Source of the DNA: Candidatus Sulfotelmatobacter sp.
GTDB taxonomy: Bacteria > Acidobacteriota > Terriglobia > Terriglobales > Acidobacteriaceae
Length of the DNA: 35,597 bases
Direction of reading: 5' to 3'
Assembly: GCA_017883425.1 (NCBI GenBank)
Contig: JADGNP010000006.1
Span: forward strand, 1-35,597
A program made the position numbers and the translations under genes. Numbering within the stretch: position 1 is the first letter of the stretch; each line of letters opens with the position of its first letter. The notes under the pieces were generated by a model. It worked only from the letters and a program-made list of their open reading frames with translations. It did not search any database and was not told where the DNA came from. Below are positions 10,248 through 30,378 of this stretch, one piece after another.

Positions 10248-12722
10248 CTATTTCGCGGTGGCTCCGCTGCTCTTCGGGTCCTGCTGGCGCGTGGCAGCGG
10301 CCGCGTGATGGATCTGTTTCATGGAGTACATGCGGCGGTCCGCCTCGGCTAGCAGTCGTTCCACATCGGACCCGTCGTCCGGACAGAATGCCATGCCTAC
10401 GCTCAGCGTGATCACATCCCGTCCGCACACGTGCCGGCCCGATTCGATGGCCGCCTGGTTCAGCCGCTCGGCCTTTTCCTTCGCCGCCTCTGCGGTCATC
10501 CCGGGAGCGGTAATCACAAATTCGTCTCCACCCATGCGCGCCACATAGTCGTATCCGCGGCACACGTCTTTCAAACGAACCGTAAACTCGCGCAGCAGTT
10601 TGTCGCCTTCCAGGTGCCCGAAGGAATCATTGATCGCCTTGAAGCCGTCGATGTCGCACACCAGTACCGCCAGCGACGTTTTCATGCGCCGGCAGCGCGC
10701 CACTTCCTGCGCCAGATGCACAAACAGCGACCGCGCATTCGGCAGGCCGGTCAGATAGTCCGTAGTCGCCGAACTCTCGGCCTGCTGATACTTCAAAGCG
10801 TTTTCCACCGACATGGCGACCTTCGAAGCCACGGCCAGCAAGATTCTCAAATGATCGGGCGTGAAGGCGTCGCGATTCGCCTGATACATAGCCAGCACGC
10901 CAACCACGCCGTTCAGTCCTTCGAGAGGCACGACCAGCGCCGATTGCAGCGTCGTATGCTTTCCGGGGTCGACCACATAGCCCGCTTCCACCTGCGGATT
11001 CCCGTTCACGATGGGCTTGCAGTTCGCCGCCACCCATCCGCACAGTCCTTCGCCTACTCTGATCTTCAACGACGACAGCATGCGGAAGTTCTCGCCGCTG
11101 ATCAGTTCCGGCAGCAGCCAGCCATTCCGGTTCACGAACACGGCAATCGAATCGTAGGGAATCATGCGCCGCAGCCGCATCGACAGCACCGACAATGTCT
11201 CGCTCAAACTCAGAGACACACCCAGATCCTGGCTCAGCTCAAACATCGTCTGCGCCTCTTGCCGTGCGGACGCGATCGATGTCAGGAAGTCCGCGCTATC
11301 GACCGGCCCGTGGGTGGGATCGGTTGGTTCGAATCCCGTTGCCGGCGCCAGCCCTCGCTCCACCTTCACTGTCTTGGAAAGCCCATGGAGACAGGCTGTT
11401 TCCTCCGACATCTGCGCCATCCGCTCCAACTCCACATAACGACTTGCAAGAATCGCGACGACTTGTGGATCGAACCACGTCCCGGCCTTCTCCTGCACTT
11501 TCGCCATCGCCTCGCCCAGGGGCAGCGCGGGCCGGTACTGGCGGTGAGAAGCCAGTGCGTCCAGACAATCCGCTGCGGCCAGGATTCGCGCTCCCATCGG
11601 AATCTCTTGCCCGCTCAATCCCTCCGGATATCCCGTTCCATCCCAGCGCTCGTGATGTGACCGGACAATCGGCGCCACGGGATAGGGAAACGCCACCCGC
11701 TCCAGAATTTCCGCCCCCACCAGTGGATGCACCTTCATCTTCTCGAACTCTTCCGGCGTGAGCTTGCCCGGCTTGTTGATGATTTGTTCCGGCACCGCCA
11801 GTTTCCCGATGTCATGCAACAGGGCTGCCGCCCGCAGCGCCTCGATCTCGCCTTGCGGCAGATTCAACTCGGTGGCCACTGCTACCGCATACGTTCGCAC
11901 GCGCTGCAGATGGGTGTGCGTGGTATGATCCTTGGCCTCGATCGCCAGCGCCAGCGCCTCGATTGTGCGCATGTTGAGCGACGCGATTTGTTCCACGTGC
12001 CGCTTTTCTACCTCGACCCGCTCTTTTTCAGCCTCCAGCCTGCCCAGATACAGCCGGTACGACCGATACACCCAATAGATCAGAGGCAGTACCAGCAGCG
12101 ACGTTTCCCATCCCGCCGACCGGTTCACAATCCCGACGAGTCCTACCGCAGCCGCTCCAACGAGATAATACGGGAACGACCAGAAGTAGCACTCCGACCA
12201 CACCTTGCGGCTCGATTTCCCCTCGGTCAACGCAATTACAACTGAGATCGGCAAAGTGTTGGCGAAGAAGAACACCAGCGCCGCGACCATCAGGAGAATG
12301 GGCTTGTTCGCTCCGAACCTCCCCACCAGCCAGTGATAGCTGAGGTAGGTAAGCGCGCCGGCATTGGCCATCATGCCCACGACGTTGAACAGTACTTTGA
12401 CCGGATCGAGCCGGTTGCGGGCCTGCCACACGCTCTGCACCAGACTCGCCAGGCAGCCAATGAGCAGCGTTTCGGGAAGGCTCAGTTCCAGCACGCCCAG
12501 CAGGATGAACAGGAAATTCACCGACATCGTGCCGTCGATCCCGGGCAGTTGCACCTTCAATCCCGATGCCAGCAGCGCCACCGCCAGATAGCACGCGAAT
12601 CGCATCAGGTCCTGCGACTGCCAATGCAACAAGGCATACCCCAGCACCACCATGCCAAACGACACGGTGATGCCGACGAATGCCTTCGTCTGAATCGACA
12701 ATCCGTCCGTCTCTGCTTTCAT
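10248..12722 (-). CDS. Membrane sensor - HD-GYP - GAF - GGDEF c-di-GMP turnover protein
   Basis: HDIGK and HHERWDGTGYPEGLSG (HD-GYP); GAF region; RGYDYVARMGGDEF (I-site RxxD plus intact GGDEF). Confidence 0.93.
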   Translation of the reverse strand: MKAETDGLSIQTKAFVGITVSFGMVVLGYALLHWQSQDLMRFACYLAVALLASGLKVQLPGIDGTMSVNFLFILLGVLELSLPETLLIGCLASLVQSVWQARNRLDPVKVLFNVVGMMANAGALTYLSYHWLVGRFGANKPILLMVAALVFFFANTLPISVVIALTEGKSSRKVWSECYFWSFPYYLVGAAAVGLVGIVNRSAGWETSLLVLPLIYWVYRSYRLYLGRLEAEKERVEVEKRHVEQIASLNMRTIEALALAIEAKDHTTHTHLQRVRTYAVAVATELNLPQGEIEALRAAALLHDIGKLAVPEQIINKPGKLTPEEFEKMKVHPLVGAEILERVAFPYPVAPIVRSHHERWDGTGYPEGLSGQEIPMGARILAAADCLDALASHRQYRPALPLGEAMAKVQEKAGTWFDPQVVAILASRYVELERMAQMSEETACLHGLSKTVKVERGLAPATGFEPTDPTHGPVDSADFLTSIASARQEAQTMFELSQDLGVSLSLSETLSVLSMRLRRMIPYDSIAVFVNRNGWLLPELISGENFRMLSSLKIRVGEGLCGWVAANCKPIVNGNPQVEAGYVVDPGKHTTLQSALVVPLEGLNGVVGVLAMYQANRDAFTPDHLRILLAVASKVAMSVENALKYQQAESSATTDYLTGLPNARSLFVHLAQEVARCRRMKTSLAVLVCDIDGFKAINDSFGHLEGDKLLREFTVRLKDVCRGYDYVARMGGDEFVITAPGMTAEAAKEKAERLNQAAIESGRHVCGRDVITLSVGMAFCPDDGSDVERLLAEADRRMYSMKQIHHAAAATRQQDPKSSGATAK

Positions 12723-17611: not shown

Positions 17612-17897
17612 CCGGGCCATTCTCGGTTCTCTTCTAGCAAGCCGCCTGGAGTGTGCAAGAATTTTCATCCTTGACGGCGCAAACGCCGGAATCCAGAATG
17701 GTTACAACTCCCCAGTCGTGTTTCCCGGGCTCTGCCTGTGAGACACGAGGAACGATTTCCCCAAAGATCTTGATTGCCGATCGGCGTTGGCGATGACGCT
17801 GTCCGGGAGGTTCAACCAGCCGCTTTCGCATCAGCCACCGACCCCTATCGGCGTCTCGATACGAACACACTTACGTTTTCCATCGCCGAGAGGATTT

Positions 17898-20800
17898 ATG
17901 AAAGCACAGACGTGCCGTCTCCTGACCCTAACTGCCGTTTGCAGTATGCTGAGTTTGGCCGCGACGATTTCGGCCTTCGCGCAGGACCTCTCTTCTTCTC
18001 CAACTTCTCTGAACTTTGGAAACGTCTACATCGGCAAGCCTTCGGGAAGCAAGGCGCTGACCATCACCAACATCTCGGGCGGTGGCATTACTATTACCAA
18101 CATCGGTTTTGACTGCGCCGGCTACGGAATCTCCGCGGGAGTGGCGCCATTTTCCTTCGGCGCGACCCAGACTATTACGCATTATTCGATCTTCCTGAAT
18201 CCCACCGCCGCGCAGACCTATAGCTGCAACTTCGTCATGACCATGAATGACGGCACCTTCGTGGATGTGCCAATCACCGGTGTCGGAATCGTGAGCACAG
18301 GGCTGGCCAGCGTGAATGTGTCATCGATGAGCTTTCCGAACCAGAAGGTCGGAACCACGAGCGCCGGGCAAACGGTTACGATCACCAACAGTGGCTCGAG
18401 CAGCGTAGCGTTAACCGGCATCACGCTGTCGCCACCCAGTTTCACGACGAGTGCCGTGACGCTTCCATACACCCTCCATGCGGGTTCCACCCTGCCGATT
18501 TCGGTGTTCTATACCCCAAGTGAAGTGACGTCAGAAACCGGAGCGCTGGATCTGACCTACACGCAAGTTGTCGATAACGGTGTGACGCTCACGGGCAATG
18601 GAATTGCGCCTACTTCGTTGGTAATCTCGACTTCGTCAACGCTGCCGCAGGCCACACAGAGTGCCGTCTACCAAACCACTCTCGCCGCCAGCGGCGGTAC
18701 AGGCGGGTATACCTGGGCCTTGGCATCGGGTTCGACGTTGCCTTTGGGATTGACTCTGTCGAGTTCCGGTGTAATCAGCGGCACGGTCGCGTCTACCGTC
18801 GCCACAGGAAATTACACTTTCACCGTGAAAGCGACGGATACAAGCTCTGGTTCCACCGCCAGTTCCGCGATGTCTATCGGCGTGTTTGCCAACCTCGCGG
18901 ACAACTGCGCCGACATTTCCTTCGACGTCCCCAACACCACGACGCCGATGACTGCGTTAACCGATCTTGGCACGGGAACCTATCAGGGGTCGGAAGGCGG
19001 GTTGTATCCCAATGGCAGCAACGTGCGGCCGACGTCTCATGACGCGGACGGCGTCGGCTTCGCGCGAGGGATTGTGCCTCTCGATGCCAACGGCAACTAT
19101 AGTCCGACCGGAAAGTACGTCATGATGGCCATCGGCGAATCGACGGCGCAGAACGAGTTCGGCCGGTTCCTGCCCATCGCCAACGCCGATCCGGCGAAGA
19201 ATCCCTATTTGGTGATAGTCAATGGCGCGCAAGGTGGCGCCACACCTTTCAACTTCACCAGCCCCAGTTCGGTGTATTGGTCCACGGTGATGAACAATTA
19301 CCTGCCACAGAATGGCGTGACCGCGAACCAGGTCGTCGTCATCTGGATGGAAGACACCGATGGAATCGCGTCCGGAACTTTTCCGAGCGACATCACCGTG
19401 CTTCAGTCTCAGTACGAGACCATGATGCAGACCATGCACACGCTGTTCCCGAACCTGAAGATGGTTTACTTCTCGTCGCGAGTGTACGGCGGATATTCCA
19501 ATGGCGTCGGGAATCCTGACAATCCTGAACCGTACGCCTATGAAGTTGGGTTCGCCGTGAAGTGGGCGATTCAGGACCAGATCAACGGCAATGCCAATTT
19601 GAATTACAACCCGGCCTTGGGAGCGGTAGTAGCGCCCTGGATGTCGTGGGGACCGTACTACTGGTCGAACGGCATGCTGGGCCGGAACGATGGATTGGAA
19701 TGGGACTGCGCGGACTTCTCCGCCGACGGAACGCATCCCTCCACCCAGTACGGGCAGTTGAAGGTCGCAACTTCGTTGCTCCAATTCCTCAAGACGGACG
19801 ATACGACGACACCGTGGTATCTGGCGCAGGGGGCCGTTCTTTCCCCGACCGGCGGTAACAATCAGACTGGCATTACCGGCACCACTCTGCCCACTGCCTT
19901 AACTGTACTGGCCTCGAATGGCGGGACTGCTGTTTCTGGCGTGAGTGTGAGCTTCAGCGACGGCGGCGCGAACGGGACGTTTACTCCAAACCCAGCCGTC
20001 ACCAACAGCAGCGGTATTGCGTCGACCAGTTACAAGCTCGGCGCCCCCGGAACCATCACAGTCACCGCCAGCAGTTCTGGTTATAATTCCGCGACCTTCA
20101 CAGAGACGTCTACGGCCGCGGTCAAGACTCTCGCCGTGAACGGCGGTAATAATCAGACTGGCGCTACGGGCAGCACGCTTCCGACCGCTCTGACTGTATT
20201 GGCCACGAACAACGGGACCGCCGTCTCCGGCGTGAGCGTATCGTTCACCGACGGCTCGACCGGGACTTTCACTCCCAATCCGGCAATCACGAACAGCAGC
20301 GGTATCGCATCGACCAGTTACAAATTGCCCACCGCGCCGGGGACTTATACCGTCACCGCCAGTAGTTCGGGCTATACGTCAACAACCTTCACTGAGACCG
20401 CCACTGCCACAACGGGGAAGCTTCTCACCGTGACCGGCGGCAACAACCAGACGGGTCCAGCGGGTACCACGCTGCCGACGGCATTGACCGTGGAGGCCAC
20501 GAATAACGGAAGCGCCGTCTCTGGCGTTAGCGTGACCTTCAAAGACAACAAAGCGGGCGGTACTTTCAATCCGGGCACCGCGGTTACGAACAGTAGCGGT
20601 ATCGCGTCGACCATCTACACGTTGCCGAAGTCGGCCAAGTCGATCACCGTCACCGCTGGCGCTGTCGGCTACACCTCGACAACCTTTAAAGAGACTTCCA
20701 CCGTAACCAAGACTCTTGCAGTAAACGGCGGCAACAATCAGACAGGCGTGGCCGGCACAACGCTGCCCACGGCGTTGACTGTATTGGCCACCAACAACGG

Positions 20801-21590
20801 CACCGCCGTTTTCGGTGTGAGCGTGTCGTTCACTGATGGCGCAGGCGGGACTTTCAGTCCAAACCCGGCCGTCAGCAACAGCAGCGGTATCGCGTCGACG
20901 AGCTACACTTTGCCGGCTACAGCCGGGACCTACACCGTCACTGCCAGCAGTACTGGCTACTCGTCGGCCACTTTCACAGAGACTGCAACCACTTCTGTGG
21001 CTGTTACTCAGCTGCAACTTGTTTCGGGCGGGAAACAGACCGGAACGGTTGGGACGACTCTGCCGAACCCGATTGTGATCAAGGCCAAGAACTCTTCCGG
21101 CGGGATCGTGGTGGGCGCTTCCATCAACTTCAGCGATGGTGTGGGTGGCACGTTCTCGCCGAATCCGGCACTCACTGGTTCGAACGGGGAAGCCAGCACT
21201 TCCTACACGCTTCCCACCAAGGCTCAGAGCCTTGTGGTGACCGCATCCGATGGGAGCGTGAAAACCACTGCTAGCGAGGCATCCGTTGCCGCTGCAGCCT
21301 CCGCGATTGCGATTGTGTCGGGGAATAACCAGTCGGCCAATCCCAATACCTTGCTTCCCAGCATGCTCATCGTGTCCGTGACCGATAAATACGGCAATGC
21401 CGTTTCGGGTTATACGGTGACGTTTACCGACAACGGCGCGGGAGGTACGTTCTCCACGACCACGCCCATAACCAATTCCTTCGGCCAGGCGTCGGTGAGC
21501 TACACCACCGGTTCGACCGCAGGAACAGTGACGATCACGGCGGGGTCGACGCAGACTGGCAGTGTCAATTTCACCGAGACGGTCATTTGA
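17898..21590 (+). CDS. Secreted multi-domain protein: HYDIN/ASPM-like domains, putative-Ig, probable SGNH-hydrolase core, six Big-1-like repeats
   Basis: Signal peptide MKAQTCRLLTLTAVCSMLSLAATISAFAQ with RBS-like GAGAGG. GES and DGTHPS motifs. Repeated GGNNQTG...TALTVLATNNGTAVSGVSVSFTDG...NSSGIASTSY. Confidence 0.9.
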   Translation: MKAQTCRLLTLTAVCSMLSLAATISAFAQDLSSSPTSLNFGNVYIGKPSGSKALTITNISGGGITITNIGFDCAGYGISAGVAPFSFGATQTITHYSIFLNPTAAQTYSCNFVMTMNDGTFVDVPITGVGIVSTGLASVNVSSMSFPNQKVGTTSAGQTVTITNSGSSSVALTGITLSPPSFTTSAVTLPYTLHAGSTLPISVFYTPSEVTSETGALDLTYTQVVDNGVTLTGNGIAPTSLVISTSSTLPQATQSAVYQTTLAASGGTGGYTWALASGSTLPLGLTLSSSGVISGTVASTVATGNYTFTVKATDTSSGSTASSAMSIGVFANLADNCADISFDVPNTTTPMTALTDLGTGTYQGSEGGLYPNGSNVRPTSHDADGVGFARGIVPLDANGNYSPTGKYVMMAIGESTAQNEFGRFLPIANADPAKNPYLVIVNGAQGGATPFNFTSPSSVYWSTVMNNYLPQNGVTANQVVVIWMEDTDGIASGTFPSDITVLQSQYETMMQTMHTLFPNLKMVYFSSRVYGGYSNGVGNPDNPEPYAYEVGFAVKWAIQDQINGNANLNYNPALGAVVAPWMSWGPYYWSNGMLGRNDGLEWDCADFSADGTHPSTQYGQLKVATSLLQFLKTDDTTTPWYLAQGAVLSPTGGNNQTGITGTTLPTALTVLASNGGTAVSGVSVSFSDGGANGTFTPNPAVTNSSGIASTSYKLGAPGTITVTASSSGYNSATFTETSTAAVKTLAVNGGNNQTGATGSTLPTALTVLATNNGTAVSGVSVSFTDGSTGTFTPNPAITNSSGIASTSYKLPTAPGTYTVTASSSGYTSTTFTETATATTGKLLTVTGGNNQTGPAGTTLPTALTVEATNNGSAVSGVSVTFKDNKAGGTFNPGTAVTNSSGIASTIYTLPKSAKSITVTAGAVGYTSTTFKETSTVTKTLAVNGGNNQTGVAGTTLPTALTVLATNNGTAVFGVSVSFTDGAGGTFSPNPAVSNSSGIASTSYTLPATAGTYTVTASSTGYSSATFTETATTSVAVTQLQLVSGGKQTGTVGTTLPNPIVIKAKNSSGGIVVGASINFSDGVGGTFSPNPALTGSNGEASTSYTLPTKAQSLVVTASDGSVKTTASEASVAAAASAIAIVSGNNQSANPNTLLPSMLIVSVTDKYGNAVSGYTVTFTDNGAGGTFSTTTPITNSFGQASVSYTTGSTAGTVTITAGSTQTGSVNFTETVI
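19851..21590 (+). repeat. Six tandem in-frame repeats, about 290-300 bp each (Ig-like domains)
   Basis: Repeat starts near 19851, 20142, 20436, 20727, 21027 and 21319. The first four are most alike and the last two diverge. Confidence 0.9.
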
Positions 21591-22141: not shown

Positions 22142-23710
22142 TTATGGCAACTGCCAGACCGTGTCGAGCACCGTGCCATCGACCCACTTCACGATGGCCA
22201 CTGGACGATCGCGGTGGACCGGTCGCTGGGGTTTTCCTCCGCAGATGCGTTCGACTTCTTCTTTGATTTCTCGCAGCGGCCGGATCGGAAGCTTCGAGCC
22301 TTTGACCGCATCCAGAAGATCCTGACGCCGCGGGTTGATGGCGATGCCGCGCTCGGTCACCACCACATCGATCAACTCGCCTGGCCCACACAGCGTCGTC
22401 ACCTCGTCGACGATCACCGGAATGCGATCACGGAAGGAAGGCACAGCCAGGATCGTGCATCGTGCCGAGAGGCAGTTTTGCCACCCGCCAATGCCGTGGA
22501 GAAGCCGTCCGTCGGAGTGCGTGACCACGTTCGCGTTGAAGTTCGCGTCTACTTCGGTGGCGCCGAGCACAACCGCGTCCACCATCGACGCGAAGTTCCC
22601 TTTGCCGTGATAGTTGTACGAAGTGAACGGGGAAGTCGCAACATGACGCGGGTTCGTTGCCATGGAGCGCACTCCGTCGAGATCGAAGGTTTGACCATCG
22701 AGGATATAGTCGGTGAGTCCTTCTTCCAGCAATTCGACCAGGTACTTGGTTGAACCCCCGCGCACGAAACGGGCCTTCACGCCAGCCTGCTTCATCATCG
22801 GCTTGAGGTAGCTGACGAAGGCCAGCGCGATTCCGCCCGCGCCGGCCTGGAAGGAAAAGCCGTTGCGCATGATTCCCGCGTCGCGCAGGAATCGGGCCAC
22901 AAATTCGGCGATGCGCAGACGGTCCGGCGAGCGCGTGATCTGGGTTGTACCCGAAACCATCCGAGCGGGATCGCCGATGGAGTCGACTTCGACGACGTAA
23001 TCCACGTTGTTGCCCTGGATCTGCCAGGGGACGCAAGGGAAGGGAACCAGGTTGTCGGTGACGACAATGACGTGGTCGGCGTACATCGAATCCGCCAGCG
23101 CGAAGCCCAGAGAGCCGCAAGCGGATTTTCCGTGCGAGGCATCGCAGTTGCCGAACGCATCGGCTGTGGGCGCGGCGATCACCGCGATATCGATGTGTAC
23201 TTCGCCGTCTTGAATAGCCTGCCAGCGCCCGCCATGCGAGCGCAGAACGCCCATGCCGCGCATTTTGCCTTGCGTGCAGTAATCGCCCAGAGGCCCGTTC
23301 ATGCTGCCCTCGATGTGGTCGATGGCTCCCGACTCCATCAACGCAATGGCATTTTTTTGCGAAGGGAAGGATGCGCTGGGGAACCACATCAGGTGCTTCA
23401 CCCCGGTCTGGGCCGCGGCTTCCAGCGCCATGAGCGCGACCCGGTCGCCGTCGCGAAGATGATGATGGGAGGACACGACCATGCCGTCGCGCAGGCCGCA
23501 TTTCCGCAGCGCGCTTTGCAGATCAGGGATGCGCTTGTCGCCATTTGTGGGATAGTCCGCCGCGGTGCGTACCGCAGGCGAGGCTTTGCCATCGAGCGGC
23601 CGGTATTTCCCGACGCCCATGAAGGGGGCTTGAGGACGGCCGTTGACCGTTTCCGGGACGATGCGTCCCGCCGAATTTGCGACCAGTTCAATTTTCTCGA
23701 GGATTGCCAT
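22142..23710 (-). CDS. citF: Citrate lyase alpha subunit-like (CitF family)
   Basis: MGVGKYRPLDGKASPAVRTAADYPTNGDKR N-terminus and CGPGELIDVVVTERGIAINPRRQDL C-terminus. Start MAILEKIELV at 23710. Confidence 0.88.
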   Translation of the reverse strand: MAILEKIELVANSAGRIVPETVNGRPQAPFMGVGKYRPLDGKASPAVRTAADYPTNGDKRIPDLQSALRKCGLRDGMVVSSHHHLRDGDRVALMALEAAAQTGVKHLMWFPSASFPSQKNAIALMESGAIDHIEGSMNGPLGDYCTQGKMRGMGVLRSHGGRWQAIQDGEVHIDIAVIAAPTADAFGNCDASHGKSACGSLGFALADSMYADHVIVVTDNLVPFPCVPWQIQGNNVDYVVEVDSIGDPARMVSGTTQITRSPDRLRIAEFVARFLRDAGIMRNGFSFQAGAGGIALAFVSYLKPMMKQAGVKARFVRGGSTKYLVELLEEGLTDYILDGQTFDLDGVRSMATNPRHVATSPFTSYNYHGKGNFASMVDAVVLGATEVDANFNANVVTHSDGRLLHGIGGWQNCLSARCTILAVPSFRDRIPVIVDEVTTLCGPGELIDVVVTERGIAINPRRQDLLDAVKGSKLPIRPLREIKEEVERICGGKPQRPVHRDRPVAIVKWVDGTVLDTVWQLP

Positions 23711-23771: not shown

Positions 23772-24977
23772 TTACGCGGCCAATCCCATGGCCTGCGCAC
23801 GCGCCATCAGCTTCAGGGCGCGCTGCACGACCGGAGGATCGATCATCTTCGAGCCCAGGCTCACGACTCCCAGACCCTTCTGCTGCGCCTCGTTGTAAGC
23901 CGCGACGATCTTCCGCGCCCGCTCGATTTCCGCCGTCGTGGGCGCGAATGCGTCGTGAATCACCGCAATCTGCAGCGGGTGAACGCAGCCCATGCCTTCA
24001 AATCCGAGCGCGCGGGAGTTTAGACCCCAGGCGCGCAGGCCTTCCAGGTCGCCGACGTCACCAAAGACCGAATCGATGGCCTGCACACCGGCGGCGTGCG
24101 CGGCGTTCACGATACGTTGCCGCGCATAGAGTGATTCCGCGCCCGTAGAAGTCTTCGCCACGCCAAGGTCGGCGGTGTAATCTTCCAGTCCGATCGTCAG
24201 TGCGACAATCTGTTCGCTCGCTTTGACGATCGCGAACGCGTTCTCGATCCCCAGCGCGGACTCAAGAATCGGCATAAGCCAGATCGGCCTCGTGATGCCG
24301 TAGTTGGCTTTGATCTCCGCCATGCGAGCGCTGGCCTCGGTGATCTGGCTCGGGCTCTCGACCTTGGGGATCAGAATCAGGTCCGGAGACTCGGGGACGA
24401 TCTCGTCGAGGTCCTCGAGTCCAAGCGGGAGTTGGTTGATGCGCACCATGCGTTCGCAGTGCAGAAAGTCGACGGCCCGCAGCGCATTGCGCACCAGCAA
24501 GCGCGCAGCATCCTTCTCGCTGGCGTGGACCGAGTCTTCCAGGTCGAGGATGACGCCGTCGGCCCCGTGCAGCGCCGCGTTGACGAAATACTTGGGCTCG
24601 CTGCCGGGAACGTAGAGCCGCGAGCGCCGCAGACGATCGCGCGCAGAAGGCTCCGGGAGCGCGATCCGGTCGGGGAGCACGCGCGTGCCCTGGCCCAGTC
24701 CGGCGCGCCGGACCGCGGCTTCGATGCGCGCGGCAATCACGAAGGGCAGCGCGCCCTCATCGTGGATCTGAACCTGGGCGTGCCGCACGCCGAGTGCCTC
24801 AAGCACCTCTTCGGCCTGCCGGTGGATCGAGTCGCCGTAATACGGTTTGACCCGCGACTCAAGTTCCACGGTAATGCCGCCGCGATCGCGGGGCTCAATC
24901 CGCACGTGAAGGTCAGACCGGACTTCCGCGCCGGAGTGGCCGGCTTCGCCGGTGCGAGTTTCCGTTGCGACTGTCAT
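23772..24977 (-). CDS. Fused citrate lyase ACP (CitD-like) and beta subunit (CitE/HpcH-HpaI family)
   Basis: N-terminal VRIEPRDRGGITVELESRVKPYYGDSIHRQAEEVLEALGVRHAQVQIHDEGALPFVIAARIEAAVRRA matches CitD; then RRSRLYVPGSEPKYF...GADGVILDLEDSV (CitE). Confidence 0.88.
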   Translation of the reverse strand: MTVATETRTGEAGHSGAEVRSDLHVRIEPRDRGGITVELESRVKPYYGDSIHRQAEEVLEALGVRHAQVQIHDEGALPFVIAARIEAAVRRAGLGQGTRVLPDRIALPEPSARDRLRRSRLYVPGSEPKYFVNAALHGADGVILDLEDSVHASEKDAARLLVRNALRAVDFLHCERMVRINQLPLGLEDLDEIVPESPDLILIPKVESPSQITEASARMAEIKANYGITRPIWLMPILESALGIENAFAIVKASEQIVALTIGLEDYTADLGVAKTSTGAESLYARQRIVNAAHAAGVQAIDSVFGDVGDLEGLRAWGLNSRALGFEGMGCVHPLQIAVIHDAFAPTTAEIERARKIVAAYNEAQQKGLGVVSLGSKMIDPPVVQRALKLMARAQAMGLAA

Positions 24978-24990
24978 GAGATCACCGTTT

Positions 24991-26235
24991 CTATTCGTGG
25001 ACTTCTGCGAGTTCAGCGTGGTTCGACGCATCCGCCGATTTCGACTGCTCAGCCAGCTTGGCCAAAACTGCGTCTGTCATTTGCACCGTGGTCGCCGCGC
25101 CCTGACTGATGGCTTTGGCGCTGCCGGGAATGCGCATCATGTCGTAGGTGCGAACTTTGCCTGCCTTCACGACGGCGGCGATGGCGTCGCGGATGCGGCG
25201 GGCTTTCTCCACCTCGCCGACGTGCTCGAGCATCATGACGGCGGAAAGGAACATCGCGATCGGGTTCACGATGGGCGGGTCGAGTTCCGCATACTTCGGA
25301 GCGGAGCCATGCGTCGGTTCGAAGACCGCGACTTCATCCCCGATGTTGCCGGATGCCGCGAAGCCCAGGCCGCCGATCAGGCCGGCGAAGGCGTCGGAGA
25401 TCACGTCGCCGAACAGGTTCGACGCGACCACCACTCCGTAGTCTTCCGGATTCTTGGTCAGCCACATGGTCTGGGCATCAATGTTGGTCGACCGCAACGC
25501 AATTCCCGGATATTCCTTGGCTACGGCCTTGGCTTCATCTTCCATCATGCCGGAAGTTTCGCGCAGCACGTTAGGCTTTTCGCAGATGGTGACAGACTTG
25601 TAGCTGTACTTTTTCGCCCATTCGAAGGCAGCCTGGCAAATCTTGCGTGCGGCGTGGCGAGTAATGATGCGCACCGAGATGGCAAGGTCAGGACCCGCAA
25701 TGGCGGTGAATGGTTTGAACTTGGAATGCGTCGCGAGCGCGGCTCGAACCTGCTCCGGCGGATTGGTCCACTCGACGCCGGCGTAAAGGCCTTCGGTATT
25801 CTGGCGGAAGACGACTACGTTGACAAGCGGTTCCTCAAAACCTCCGGCGGTCTTTTTGCGGATGAAGTTCAGCGGATTGCCGGGGAAGGAAATGCACGGG
25901 CGAATGCAAGTGTCGAGATGGAAGCGCTGCCGCATGGTGACAATGGGGCTGAAATACGAGTAGCCCTTGCCTCGGAGCTCCGGCCTGAGTTCGCCTTCCG
26001 CCTGTTTCTTGGGCTTGGAGGTGATGGCGCCAAACAGGCCCAGCTTGTGCTTGGCCAGCAGATCGACGGTGCGTTGGGGCAGGGCATTGCCCTCTCGGCA
26101 CCAGTACTCCCAGCCGATATCGGCGTGGATGTAGTCGGCGTCGAAGCCGACTGCTTTCAGAATCCGCAAGGCCTCGGGGAGAACCTGATTGCCAATTCCA
26201 TCTCCGGGCATGGTGACGACGGTATGTTTTGCCAT
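24991..26235 (-). CDS. Isocitrate/isopropylmalate-family decarboxylating dehydrogenase
   Basis: VVTMPGDGIGNQVLPEAL, VVFRQNTEGLYAGVEW, NLFGDVISDAFAGLIGGLGFAASGNIGDEVAVFEPTHGSAPKY. Confidence 0.92.
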   Translation of the reverse strand: MAKHTVVTMPGDGIGNQVLPEALRILKAVGFDADYIHADIGWEYWCREGNALPQRTVDLLAKHKLGLFGAITSKPKKQAEGELRPELRGKGYSYFSPIVTMRQRFHLDTCIRPCISFPGNPLNFIRKKTAGGFEEPLVNVVVFRQNTEGLYAGVEWTNPPEQVRAALATHSKFKPFTAIAGPDLAISVRIITRHAARKICQAAFEWAKKYSYKSVTICEKPNVLRETSGMMEDEAKAVAKEYPGIALRSTNIDAQTMWLTKNPEDYGVVVASNLFGDVISDAFAGLIGGLGFAASGNIGDEVAVFEPTHGSAPKYAELDPPIVNPIAMFLSAVMMLEHVGEVEKARRIRDAIAAVVKAGKVRTYDMMRIPGSAKAISQGAATTVQMTDAVLAKLAEQSKSADASNHAELAEVHE

Positions 26236-26241
26236 GATTGC

Positions 26242-28230
26242 TTAGTCTCCTGAAACGACGACAGCCTCTTCACGCGGGTGCTTCTGATCCAGCCCCAGTC
26301 TCTTCGCGACCATGTTCTCCGCACCGCCCGCGATGACCAGGGACTGCGGCACACTGCCAAGCGGCGGGAAAGCGAAGCTCGCCCCACGCCATGCAACTGT
26401 TCCGGAAGTGAAGTCGATCTCCACCTGCTCGCCCGGGATAATGGTCTTTTCTTTTCCGGCGATGTCGCTGGCGAACTGTTCGCGCAGCCGCTTTACCAAC
26501 TCCGGAACCTCGATGCACAAGAAGCCGTTGTTATAGGCGTTGCGCAGGTAGGTTTGCGAAAAGCTGCCCGCGATGACCAGCGGGATGCCTTTGGCCTTCA
26601 GACAAGTGACCGCCTGTTCGCGACTCGATCCGGTACCGAAATTGAATCCGCCGACGATGACGTCGCCGGCGCGAGTGCGAAGGGCAAACGTCGGGTCATA
26701 GTTCTCCATGACCACGCGGGCCATCATCGCGGGCGTCATGTCATCGCGATAAGTGTAATCCTTGCCGTAGATGGCGTCGGTGTTAACGTTGTCCGGCGGC
26801 ATGAACACCAGCCGGCCTTGCACGCGCTCGGGAAATCCGGGGAGGATCTCCACGCGCTCGGCGGAGTGCGAATTGGACGCGAACTCTTCGTAATTGCGCA
26901 CGAGAGTGCGGTCTGCAAACTGACGCGGCCCGGTGATGTAGCCGGCGATGGCCGAGGCCGCGACGACTTCGGGACTGGCGAGATAGCACTGAGCCTCGCG
27001 CGATCCCATGCGGCCTTTGAAATTGCGGTTAGTGGCCGAGATGCCGACCTCACCCTTTTCCAGAAGTCCGGTTCCCAGACCGATGCAGGGGCCGCAACTG
27101 GATGGTAACGGAATCGCTCCGGCATCGAGCAGCGCTTGCCAGACGCCGCGTTTCTCCGCCTCCTGCTGCGTCCATGCGCTGGCCGCGCCCACGTAGAGCT
27201 TTACGCCAGGGGCAACCTTCTTGCCGCACAACACCCAAGCAGCCGCTTCGAGGTCCTCGACGCGGGAGTTTACGCAGGAAACCAGGTATGCCTTGTGGAC
27301 TGCGACTCTTTTCTTTTCAATCTCGGAGAGAGATTGCATCGCCTGCACAGTGTCGGGGCCGGAGACATGCGGCGTGACCTGACCGAGATCGAGGACAATG
27401 CGCGCGGCATAGGTCGCATCGGGATCGGGACGCGACGGCGTTTGGATCCATCTGTCGATGTCTTTTTCTGTGAAGCGCTCAACGCCTTGTTCCTGCAGGA
27501 GCTGGTGCATACCGCGCAGGTAACGGATGGTGACGTCGTCCACCGGGAACCAGGCTACGAGCGGTCCCCACTCGGTGCTCATGTTGGAGATGGAGAAGCG
27601 GGCATCCATCGACAGGCTGGCTACGCCCGAGCCGGAGAATTCGACGGCTGCGTTCAGAACCTCGTCGTGGTTGTAGAGGCCGCAAAGAGTGATGATGACG
27701 TCTTTACCGCTGACGCCTTCGGGCAGTTTGCCTTCGAGCACCACCTGGATGGTCCGCGGAATCTGCCACCAGAATTCGCCCGTGGCCCAAACCGCAGCGG
27801 CGTCGGTGCGGACAATGGGCGTACCAATAGCGCCGAGCGCGCCGTACATGTTGGAGTGCGAATCTGACGCAACTACGAAAGATCCCGGGAGAACATACCC
27901 GCGCTCGACCATGATCTGGTGGCCGATGCCCGATCCGGCGGGATAGAAATCGACTCCGTGTTGCGTGGCGAAGGCTTCGATGGACCCATATTTCTTCAGG
28001 TTAGCCTCGTCGCGATTCTGGATGTCGTGATCGAGGGCAAAGACGAGTTGTTTCGGGTCGGATATCTTCTTGGCGCCGATGGCTTTGAATTTACTCATCA
28101 CCGCCGACGTGTTGTCGTGGGTCATGGTGTGAAACGGCCGGATGGAAACGAAGTCGCCGGTGCGCAGCGGGCGCTGCGGGCCATCGGCGAGGTGGGCTTG
28201 GGCGATCTTCTCAACAATTGTCTGAGGCAT
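26242..28230 (-). CDS. Aconitase superfamily, homoaconitase (LYS4)-like, catalytic and swivel domains fused
   Basis: DSHSNMYGALGAIGTPIVRTD, SCVNSRVEDLEAAA, SCGPCIGLG, SATNRNFKGRMGS, swivel FGTGSSREQAVTCLKAKGIPLVIAGSF. Confidence 0.9.
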   Translation of the reverse strand: MPQTIVEKIAQAHLADGPQRPLRTGDFVSIRPFHTMTHDNTSAVMSKFKAIGAKKISDPKQLVFALDHDIQNRDEANLKKYGSIEAFATQHGVDFYPAGSGIGHQIMVERGYVLPGSFVVASDSHSNMYGALGAIGTPIVRTDAAAVWATGEFWWQIPRTIQVVLEGKLPEGVSGKDVIITLCGLYNHDEVLNAAVEFSGSGVASLSMDARFSISNMSTEWGPLVAWFPVDDVTIRYLRGMHQLLQEQGVERFTEKDIDRWIQTPSRPDPDATYAARIVLDLGQVTPHVSGPDTVQAMQSLSEIEKKRVAVHKAYLVSCVNSRVEDLEAAAWVLCGKKVAPGVKLYVGAASAWTQQEAEKRGVWQALLDAGAIPLPSSCGPCIGLGTGLLEKGEVGISATNRNFKGRMGSREAQCYLASPEVVAASAIAGYITGPRQFADRTLVRNYEEFASNSHSAERVEILPGFPERVQGRLVFMPPDNVNTDAIYGKDYTYRDDMTPAMMARVVMENYDPTFALRTRAGDVIVGGFNFGTGSSREQAVTCLKAKGIPLVIAGSFSQTYLRNAYNNGFLCIEVPELVKRLREQFASDIAGKEKTIIPGEQVEIDFTSGTVAWRGASFAFPPLGSVPQSLVIAGGAENMVAKRLGLDQKHPREEAVVVSGD

Positions 28231-28308: not shown

Positions 28309-29793
28309 TTATGCGAGCACGGGCTTGTGGCTCTTCTGGCCTTTGGCGCGCTGCTTCGTCCCGCCCTTGGTCTTCACGGACTCTGTCTTGCGAACATCGG
28401 CTTCCAGCAGAGCCATCAGTTCGCTTACAGAACCGACTCGCTCCAAATTCCAGATCGCATCTTTGACTCGCTTCTGCGCGCCGATGGATAGTACGCCATC
28501 GGCGAGCGCAGAAAACTTTTCTTCCAATTCCTGATCCGTCAACGGATTGCGCGGATCACCTTTGGGATAATCAAGCTGTTTATTGAAGGAGCGTCCGTCG
28601 GTTGTGCTGATGTTCACGATCACCCGCTGCAGTGCGGGAAATACTTTTTCGATCTCGGGATCCGCGACTACCTCGACCTTCTGCAGTTGCGCCCGGATTG
28701 CCGGGTCCATGATCTTTTCCATGGTAAACTGCGCCGGCGTCACCTGACGGTCGACCAGCGCTGCGGCGATCACATAGGGCAACGAGTGATCGGCAGTCTC
28801 CCTGGTGCGGGGATCGTATTTGCTGGGATCGGAAAGAATGTCGGCGGCGCGGGCCAGCGAGCGGATCTGGATCTTCTCCACCTGGTCGGGATGCAGATCA
28901 TTGCTCTTCACCAGATCGAGCACTGCCGAGATGGGCGTGTGGGTCAAGGCTTCAGTGGGAAAGGCTTTCATGCCGCATTGCGTGATGCGCCAGGATTCGC
29001 CCAAGCCATCCGTCAGGAGATTGAGCTTCCACTCCGGTTTGAAGACATGGGTCAGCCCTTCCTTGCCATCGACCACGTGCTCCGGGCCGGTATAGCCTTT
29101 TTCCGCCAGCAGTGCGGCAAACACGCCGCTCTGGGTCGCCATGGGATCGACGGTATTCTTCATCATGGTCAGCTTGCCTGCCGTGACCGCGCCCAGCGTG
29201 CAGTGACGACTGGCGGAGATGCCGATGGCGTGCTGGATTTGCTTCCAGGGAAGGTGCAGAGCGCGCCCAGCCACCATGGGCGAAACGAAGGCGGTGAGCG
29301 TGGCGTGATGCCAGCCGCGCTCACGGATGCCCGGGAACGCCGCTTCGCAATAGCGCATTTCGAATTCGTGGCCGAGCACGAGTCCGACGATGAGTTCCTT
29401 GCCGCCACTGTAGGCGCGTTCGCAGCAGGCGATCGCTGCGGGAAAAATGTCGGAGGGATGCGAAGGGTCCTGTTTCCAGTAGATGTCGTTGTAATCCATA
29501 CAGCGGATCATGAGCGCGTTGGCCAGCGACGCGGAGACGGGATCGATGCGCCGGCCGGTGCCAATCACGGTGGCGAGTCCTCGGCCGGCAACTTCGTCGA
29601 GAACTGCGAGAGCAATCTTTACGTCGTGCTGCTGGTAGCCGCCCAACGCGCAGCCCAGCGAGTCGAGCAGGAAACGCTTGGCCTGGTAGACGGCGTCCGG
29701 AGAGAGGTTCTTGAACTGGAGAGCGGACGCCCAGCGGGACATCTTCGCGGTCACAGTTTCTTTGGCAGGGGGATTCGGGTTGGACGCAGACAC
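28309..29793 (-). CDS. MmgE/PrpD family protein
   Basis: KRFLLDSLGCALGGYQQHDVK, MIRCMDYNDIYWKQDPSHPSDIFPAAIA, MPTEALTHTPISAVLDL-like region (KAFPTEALTH). Confidence 0.9.
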   Translation of the reverse strand: MSASNPNPPAKETVTAKMSRWASALQFKNLSPDAVYQAKRFLLDSLGCALGGYQQHDVKIALAVLDEVAGRGLATVIGTGRRIDPVSASLANALMIRCMDYNDIYWKQDPSHPSDIFPAAIACCERAYSGGKELIVGLVLGHEFEMRYCEAAFPGIRERGWHHATLTAFVSPMVAGRALHLPWKQIQHAIGISASRHCTLGAVTAGKLTMMKNTVDPMATQSGVFAALLAEKGYTGPEHVVDGKEGLTHVFKPEWKLNLLTDGLGESWRITQCGMKAFPTEALTHTPISAVLDLVKSNDLHPDQVEKIQIRSLARAADILSDPSKYDPRTRETADHSLPYVIAAALVDRQVTPAQFTMEKIMDPAIRAQLQKVEVVADPEIEKVFPALQRVIVNISTTDGRSFNKQLDYPKGDPRNPLTDQELEEKFSALADGVLSIGAQKRVKDAIWNLERVGSVSELMALLEADVRKTESVKTKGGTKQRAKGQKSHKPVLA

Positions 29794-29811: not shown

Positions 29812-30378
29812 TTAACCTGATGTTTTGAGCTTGATGTTCTTCGGATTCTTGAACGGCAGGAAGGCCATGAAGTCGGCGTGATGCACGATGAAGGCTTCCG
29901 TGGTGCGCTTGACCAGATCGCCCTCGGCCGCGTGGGCGGCGATGATGTGGCAAACCGCGTCGGGCACGCCGCATTCGAGCGCCAGTGCGACCCCGGTGAA
30001 GGGATGGCGCAGAGCCTCGCCGCGTTCGCTCTGGCGGCTCTTGCCGTCGGGGCCGATTTCGTATTCCAGCAGCTTGCCCACGTCGGCCAGAATTGCGCCC
30101 GCAATCACGGTGTCGAGGTCGATGGGCAACGCCCGTCCCATGAAACTGTGCATGGCCCGGGCGCTGTCGCGAGCGATGTGCACGACGCAGCGTTTGTGCT
30201 CCATAAAGGTGATGGGGCAATTCGGAACCAGCAGGGTGAAGGGGATCCGGTTCAGGTCTTCGGCCTGGAGGGAGCTGCGCTCGAGCGCTTTGATCCAGGT
30301 GTCGGTAACTTGTTCACGCAATTGGAGATCTTCAATCCAGTCGATCTCCGGCCAAAGGCGCTTGATAGTCTCCCGCAT
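29812..30378 (-). CDS. HD-domain phosphohydrolase-like protein (degenerate HD motif)
   Basis: HIARDSARAM...LADVGKLLEYE...RHPFTGVALAL...HIIAAHAAEGD pattern; 18 bp upstream of the MmgE/PrpD gene. Confidence 0.8.
   Translation of the reverse strand: MRETIKRLWPEIDWIEDLQLREQVTDTWIKALERSSLQAEDLNRIPFTLLVPNCPITFMEHKRCVVHIARDSARAMHSFMGRALPIDLDTVIAGAILADVGKLLEYEIGPDGKSRQSERGEALRHPFTGVALALECGVPDAVCHIIAAHAAEGDLVKRTTEAFIVHHADFMAFLPFKNPKNIKLKTSG

Follow-up and report, generated by a model that had tools for sequence, protein, structure and literature searches.

The 35,597-nucleotide stretch of Candidatus Sulfotelmatobacter sp. DNA analysed here (contig JADGNP010000006.1, referred to as the window) encodes a genuine CitD-CitE fusion in which the serine that carries the prosthetic group in citrate lyase is replaced by an arginine. 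Citrate lyase, which splits citrate into acetate and oxaloacetate, is the textbook example of dependence on a costly prosthetic group of its own, served by three accessory proteins, and Ser14 is established as the modified residue of Klebsiella citrate lyase CitD. The fused protein is likely to do without phosphoribosyl-dephospho-CoA, with CitF and CitDE acting on free CoA thioesters within a tricarboxylate pathway. The sequences show the fusion itself, the loss of Ser14, the loss of citX and citG and the conservation of the surrounding gene module; the use of free CoA, the substrate and the direction of the reaction are what the explanation proposes.

The fused protein (P0001, 401 aa; 23772-24977, minus strand) is read in an unbroken frame from the ATG at 24977 to the stop at 23772. 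The original prediction saw a CitD pattern at its N-terminus running into a CitE barrel, to be given up if no CitD profile matched there, and both profile searches and structure prediction bear it out. Residues 15-92 (24702-24935, minus strand) match the Pfam ACP family (CitD/MdcD; 73.9 bits, cut-off 25.1, E 1.3e-20), and the protein scores over the cut-offs of the citD model TIGR01608 (65.3 bits, cut-off 63.5), as expected of a member of the CitD profile, and of the citrate lyase gamma model PRK13253 (72.0, cut-off 65). Residues 118-334 (23976-24626, minus strand) form a CitE-type HpcH/HpaI barrel with the catalytic residues kept (HpcH_HpaI E 1.2e-52), scoring 267.9 with TIGR01588 citE, under the equivalog cut-off of 443.4. 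The AlphaFold2 model, built from a 51-sequence alignment (mean pLDDT 93, pTM 0.89), places a CitD-sized alpha/beta domain ahead of a barrel and lid. The CitD domain is modelled as well packed (pLDDT 92-97), and the best Foldseek matches of the barrel are malyl-CoA lyases and human CLYBL.

Whether the modified serine survives in the fusion had been left as an open question, which alignment with E. coli CitD answers. The motif GTLESGD of E. coli lies without gaps against GAEVRSD of P0001, with Ser14 corresponding to Arg20 and Gly15 to Ser21; the Arg20-Ser21-Asp22 codons occupy 24912-24920 (minus strand), with Arg20 at the place of the canonical Ser14. Ser14 of the phosphoribosyl-dephospho-CoA motif (E/Q)S(S/G)D is absent from all 80 fusion homologues, which have Arg20 (80/80) and Asp22 (80/80). 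Stand-alone CitD proteins in three genomes of Acidobacteriota keep the serine, as QSSD or ESSD, and so does an acidobacterial MdcC (L135), with the motif GSGD.

The genes for making the prosthetic group are missing as well. CitX and CitG make and attach this group, and CitC acetylates it (PMC10798043). A genome search for citX and citG had been suggested as a check; once run, it found neither in about 58 distinct fusion genomes, a figure that allows for at least one genome sampled twice (the L108 contig). The search came back empty for both in 20 same-genus genomes (13 of them fusion-bearing), in 17 fusion genomes of other groups, seven of them under the record label chromosome, and in 29 additional fusion genomes of Acidobacteriota. 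Both are present in all three genomes of Acidobacteriota whose CitD stands alone and is of the Ser14 type, and the MdcC-bearing genome has a CitG-family gene. By simple counting, a split of 3/3 (stand-alone CitD) to 0/29 (fusion) would arise by chance once in 4,960. Single absences of CitX or CitG may reflect bin incompleteness, but a pattern over so many bins is hard to explain in this way. As for citC, no ligase was found: the weak citrate-lyase-ligase matches have CoaD-like length and position, and the CitC-type match of about 24 bits in the window's genome reads as CoaD by sequence. Together, the loss of Ser14 and of citX and citG suggests that the enzyme probably works with free CoA.

The residues of the two catalytic partners are consistent with free CoA. 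The catalytic residues of CitE-like enzymes have been listed by Zarzycki and Kerfeld (PMC3832036), and the Mg-binding Glu/Asp, catalytic Arg and lid Asp of this superfamily are present in the fusions, with E147 in 79/80 and D148, R179, E239, D266 and the lid D380 in 80/80. Two further CitE positions differ from the canonical enzyme: position 202 is Leu in 80/80 fusions versus Arg in four canonical CitE proteins, and position 333 is His in 80/80 versus Asn in the same four. A hydrophobic residue at 202 and His at 333 also occur in seven CitD-less CitE-like homologues and in solved malyl-CoA lyases, CLYBL, RipC and a Deinococcus CitE-like protein. Apart from true citrate lyase, the CitE-like enzymes that have been characterised act on free CoA esters (PMC3832036); these CoA-type residues could also fit ancestry rather than function. 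The neighbouring gene (22142-23710, minus strand; start judged by eye as the ATG at 23710) encodes a CitF-type alpha subunit of the citrate:acetyl-ACP/CoA transferase family (PF04223 E 3e-125; PDB 2hj0/1xr4), scoring 473 bits with TIGR01584 citF, under the cut-off of 501.45. CitF carries GGWQNCL in 71/71 fusion loci versus GGHCD(T/V)A in 4/4 canonical CitF proteins, in a region similar to the glycine-rich loop found in CoA transferases. Since CitE and CitF both score under their equivalog cut-offs, citrate itself is unproven as the substrate. The original prediction that serine loss would imply another carrier, such as free CoA, thus gains support from the CitX/CitG absence, from Ala or Gly at position 21 in some fusions and from the CoA-lyase-type residues of CitE. 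Its suggestion that fusion would bring in the acyl arm in cis finds no support, given the replacement of the attachment serine by an invariant Arg and the missing citX and citG, and it mentioned neither the wide spread of the fusion nor the six-gene module.

In most loci that are long enough, this module keeps the gene order HD protein, MmgE/PrpD, homoaconitase-type hydratase, IDH-type dehydrogenase, CitDE and CitF, and no other neighbour is conserved beside it beyond a few close relatives. All its genes lie on the minus strand of the window. Next to the fusion, a beta-decarboxylating dehydrogenase of the isocitrate/isopropylmalate/homoisocitrate type (24991-26235; PF00180) has T. thermophilus homoisocitrate dehydrogenase and NAD-IDH as its best PDB matches and reaches no equivalog cut-off. 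Its loop SPIVTMR aligns a Val with Arg85 of the T. thermophilus enzyme, the residue that reads homoisocitrate, and so does not prove homoisocitrate as its substrate. Then comes a homoaconitase-type hydro-lyase (26242-28230), related to fungal Lys4, whose large and small domains share a single chain. It scores 757 bits with TIGR00139 against a cut-off of 529.9 (734-746 bits in other phyla), as expected of a Lys4-type homoaconitase, and two other aconitase-family proteins from relatives' genomes gave no TIGR00139 match at E 1e-60. An MmgE/PrpD-family dehydratase (28309-29793; PF03972/PF19305) matches IRG1-like, IDS-epimerase and 2-methylcitrate dehydratase structures. The first module gene encodes an HD-domain metalloprotein (29812-30378; TIGR00277 30.3 bits, cut-off 27.6) for which no Pfam match was found. 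It is modelled at pLDDT 90 by AlphaFold2, with weak similarity to HD folds in a fold search, and has 29 homologues across phyla at 69-94% identity to the window copy; it may be a pathway enzyme of the module.

The most likely reaction sequence is the following. CitF, as a CoA transferase, would move CoA from acetyl-CoA to a 3-hydroxy-3-carboxy tricarboxylate of the citrate or homocitrate type, and CitDE would reversibly split the resulting free CoA thioester into acetyl-CoA and a 2-oxoacid, its CitD domain, with the carrier serine lost, being kept for structure, docking or CoA binding. The tricarboxylate would be dehydrated by MmgE/PrpD and rehydrated by the Lys4-like homoaconitase, and oxidative decarboxylation by the IDH/HICDH-type enzyme would give CO2 and a 2-oxoacid one carbon longer. 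The net effect would be an interconversion, in one direction or the other, of two 2-oxoacids with chain lengths one carbon apart. Homocitrate is tentatively put forward as the substrate of the module, with odds somewhat short of even; citrate is possible but on balance doubtful, and the same holds for a substrate other than these two. A bolder version, in which the invariant Arg20 holds free CoA non-covalently for CitE and CitF within an undescribed homocitrate 2-oxoacid pathway with a prosthetic-group-free homocitrate lyase, is rather unlikely as a whole.

Could the module handle ordinary citrate, converting oxaloacetate and acetate to citrate, isocitrate and 2-oxoglutarate, and back, as an extra half-circle of the TCA cycle? 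Every enzyme family involved has citrate-type members, and CitF and CitE are nearest to citrate lyase models. However, separate genes for citrate synthases and for a full-length aconitase of AcnA size exist in these genomes, the hydratase of the cluster scores over the homoaconitase cut-off in several phyla, where the two other aconitase-family proteins of relatives gave no match, and the dehydrogenase is nearest to homoisocitrate-type enzymes, leaving the citrate route a possible but doubtful alternative. For the main TCA route, the separate citrate synthase and the AcnA-size aconitase make such a role unlikely. A citrate fermentation operon was rejected, as citC, citX and citG were not found and no conserved transporter lies nearby.

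Carrier function might instead have been kept at the neighbouring Ser21, through a different arm, namely phosphopantetheine from a general AcpS-type enzyme, or through a transferase unlike CitX. Ser21 is present in 77 of the 80 fusions and is directly followed by the invariant Asp. Nevertheless, position 21 is Ala in L101 and L115 and Gly in L107, where the clusters are otherwise complete or nearly so, and by alignment no carrier serine is universally retained in the fusions. With CitX and CitG also absent from the fusion genomes tested, a carrier at Ser21 appears improbable, and free CoA is retained as the probable acyl carrier.

If the CitD domain carries nothing, it might be thought a decaying remnant without a role, its attachment site being gone. 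Yet purifying selection acts on it to nearly the same degree as on the catalytic domain, with dN/dS of 0.08-0.11 compared with 0.06-0.08 for the CitE barrel (three close pairs). Many of its positions are invariant in the 80-sequence alignment (R20, D22, G48, D73, G75, R84, E86), it is kept across phyla and it is modelled as compactly folded, all of which makes decay very unlikely. Such selection implies that the domain has been kept for a different function, probably a structural one or the binding of CoA. Of these, a structural or docking role can safely be suggested from the sequences, and CoA binding by Arg20 would be the bolder suggestion.

Lysine biosynthesis through the aminoadipate route is very hard to credit as the purpose of the module, despite homoaconitase- and homoisocitrate-dehydrogenase-like genes standing together. 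DapB, which points to the diaminopimelate route, was found in 7/7 same-genus genomes and 4/7 others, and the module has no other conserved neighbour beyond those few close relatives; with DapB in most genomes, the aminoadipate lysine route is considered unlikely. Taken together, the separate citrate synthases, the AcnA-size aconitases and the frequent DapB mean that the main TCA cycle or lysine supply poorly explains the module.

The fusion was also traced beyond the window. It is uninterrupted in 13 genomes of the Candidatus Sulfotelmatobacter genus (71-100% identity), and a genome-wide scan found carriers in this genus, other Acidobacteriota, Gemmatimonadota, Latescibacterota, Deltaproteobacteria, Krumholzibacteriia and one Bacteroidetes bin. 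When a tree was built on the CitE portion, with a small comparison set that had been chosen for its similarity to the query, all 80 fusions grouped as a single clade (support 0.985) with no unfused member inside. Nearly all fusion-bearing genomes are metagenome bins, and windows from such bins can be misassembled, but a frameshift or assembly join of two genes, named at the outset as what could undo the prediction, is rejected as practically inconceivable given uninterrupted fusions in same-genus genomes and in 80 independently assembled sequences of several phyla within a single clade.

Compared with the ATP-independent citrate lyase CitDEF of E. coli and Klebsiella (citCDEFXG), the window system shares the adjacent CitD, CitE and CitF families and the CitE catalytic residues. 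It differs in the fusion of CitD to CitE, the change of Ser14 to Arg, the failure to find citC, citX or citG, the change of GGHCD to GGWQN in CitF and citE and citF scores under the equivalog cut-offs. On the features tested (Ser14, citX/citG, citC and the citE/citF cut-offs), the name citrate lyase fails, and the best explanation would be an enzyme that works like citrate lyase but with free CoA. Malyl-CoA lyase, CLYBL (a citramalyl-CoA lyase) and RipC have the closest folds and share the hydrophobic residue 202 and His 333; their substrates are free CoA esters, a likeness proposed to extend to the fusion, and their barrel differs in having no fused CitD domain. Malonate decarboxylase MdcC shares the Pfam domain, with a Ser-bearing GSGD in L135, and differs as a separate subunit in which the serine is retained and whose genome has a CitG-family gene. 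Fungal homoaconitase Lys4 and the aminoadipate pathway offer a hydratase over the TIGR00139 cut-off and a homoisocitrate-dehydrogenase-like enzyme as common points, whereas here an MmgE/PrpD dehydratase and the citrate-lyase-like pair adjoin and DapB is present in most genomes. No description of a CitDE fusion, a homocitrate lyase or this gene set was found in the literature searched, which covered few subscription papers. The six-gene module, conserved across phyla, appears to be an uncharacterised central-carbon pathway, here reduced to testable reactions. If the cofactor and its maturation system have been dropped, the fusion would show an acyl-carrier enzyme working with free CoA, and a lineage that keeps all three domains of the catalytic complex would show the worth of a carrier domain that carries nothing. 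Automatic labelling as plain citrate lyase would misdirect attempts to predict which soil bacteria ferment citrate or run a reverse TCA cycle.

Variant loci were also observed. In L108 (1-9283), the place of MmgE/PrpD is taken by an additional aconitase-family protein of 652 aa, beside which the homoaconitase is split into a HacA/HacB-like pair, and L113 (2905-9173) gives the same tblastn match pattern. By their gene content, these clusters fit separate dehydration and hydration steps. A second citDE-citF pair lies at 960-3732 of L036 (G004 contig 81), a contig that starts just upstream; the full cluster is present in that genome as well. Elsewhere in the window, a protein with HD-type, GAF and GGDEF domains (10248-12722, minus strand) is a probable cyclic-di-GMP enzyme, and a 1267-aa protein with Ig-like (Big_1) domain matches (17787-21590, plus strand) is probably secreted.
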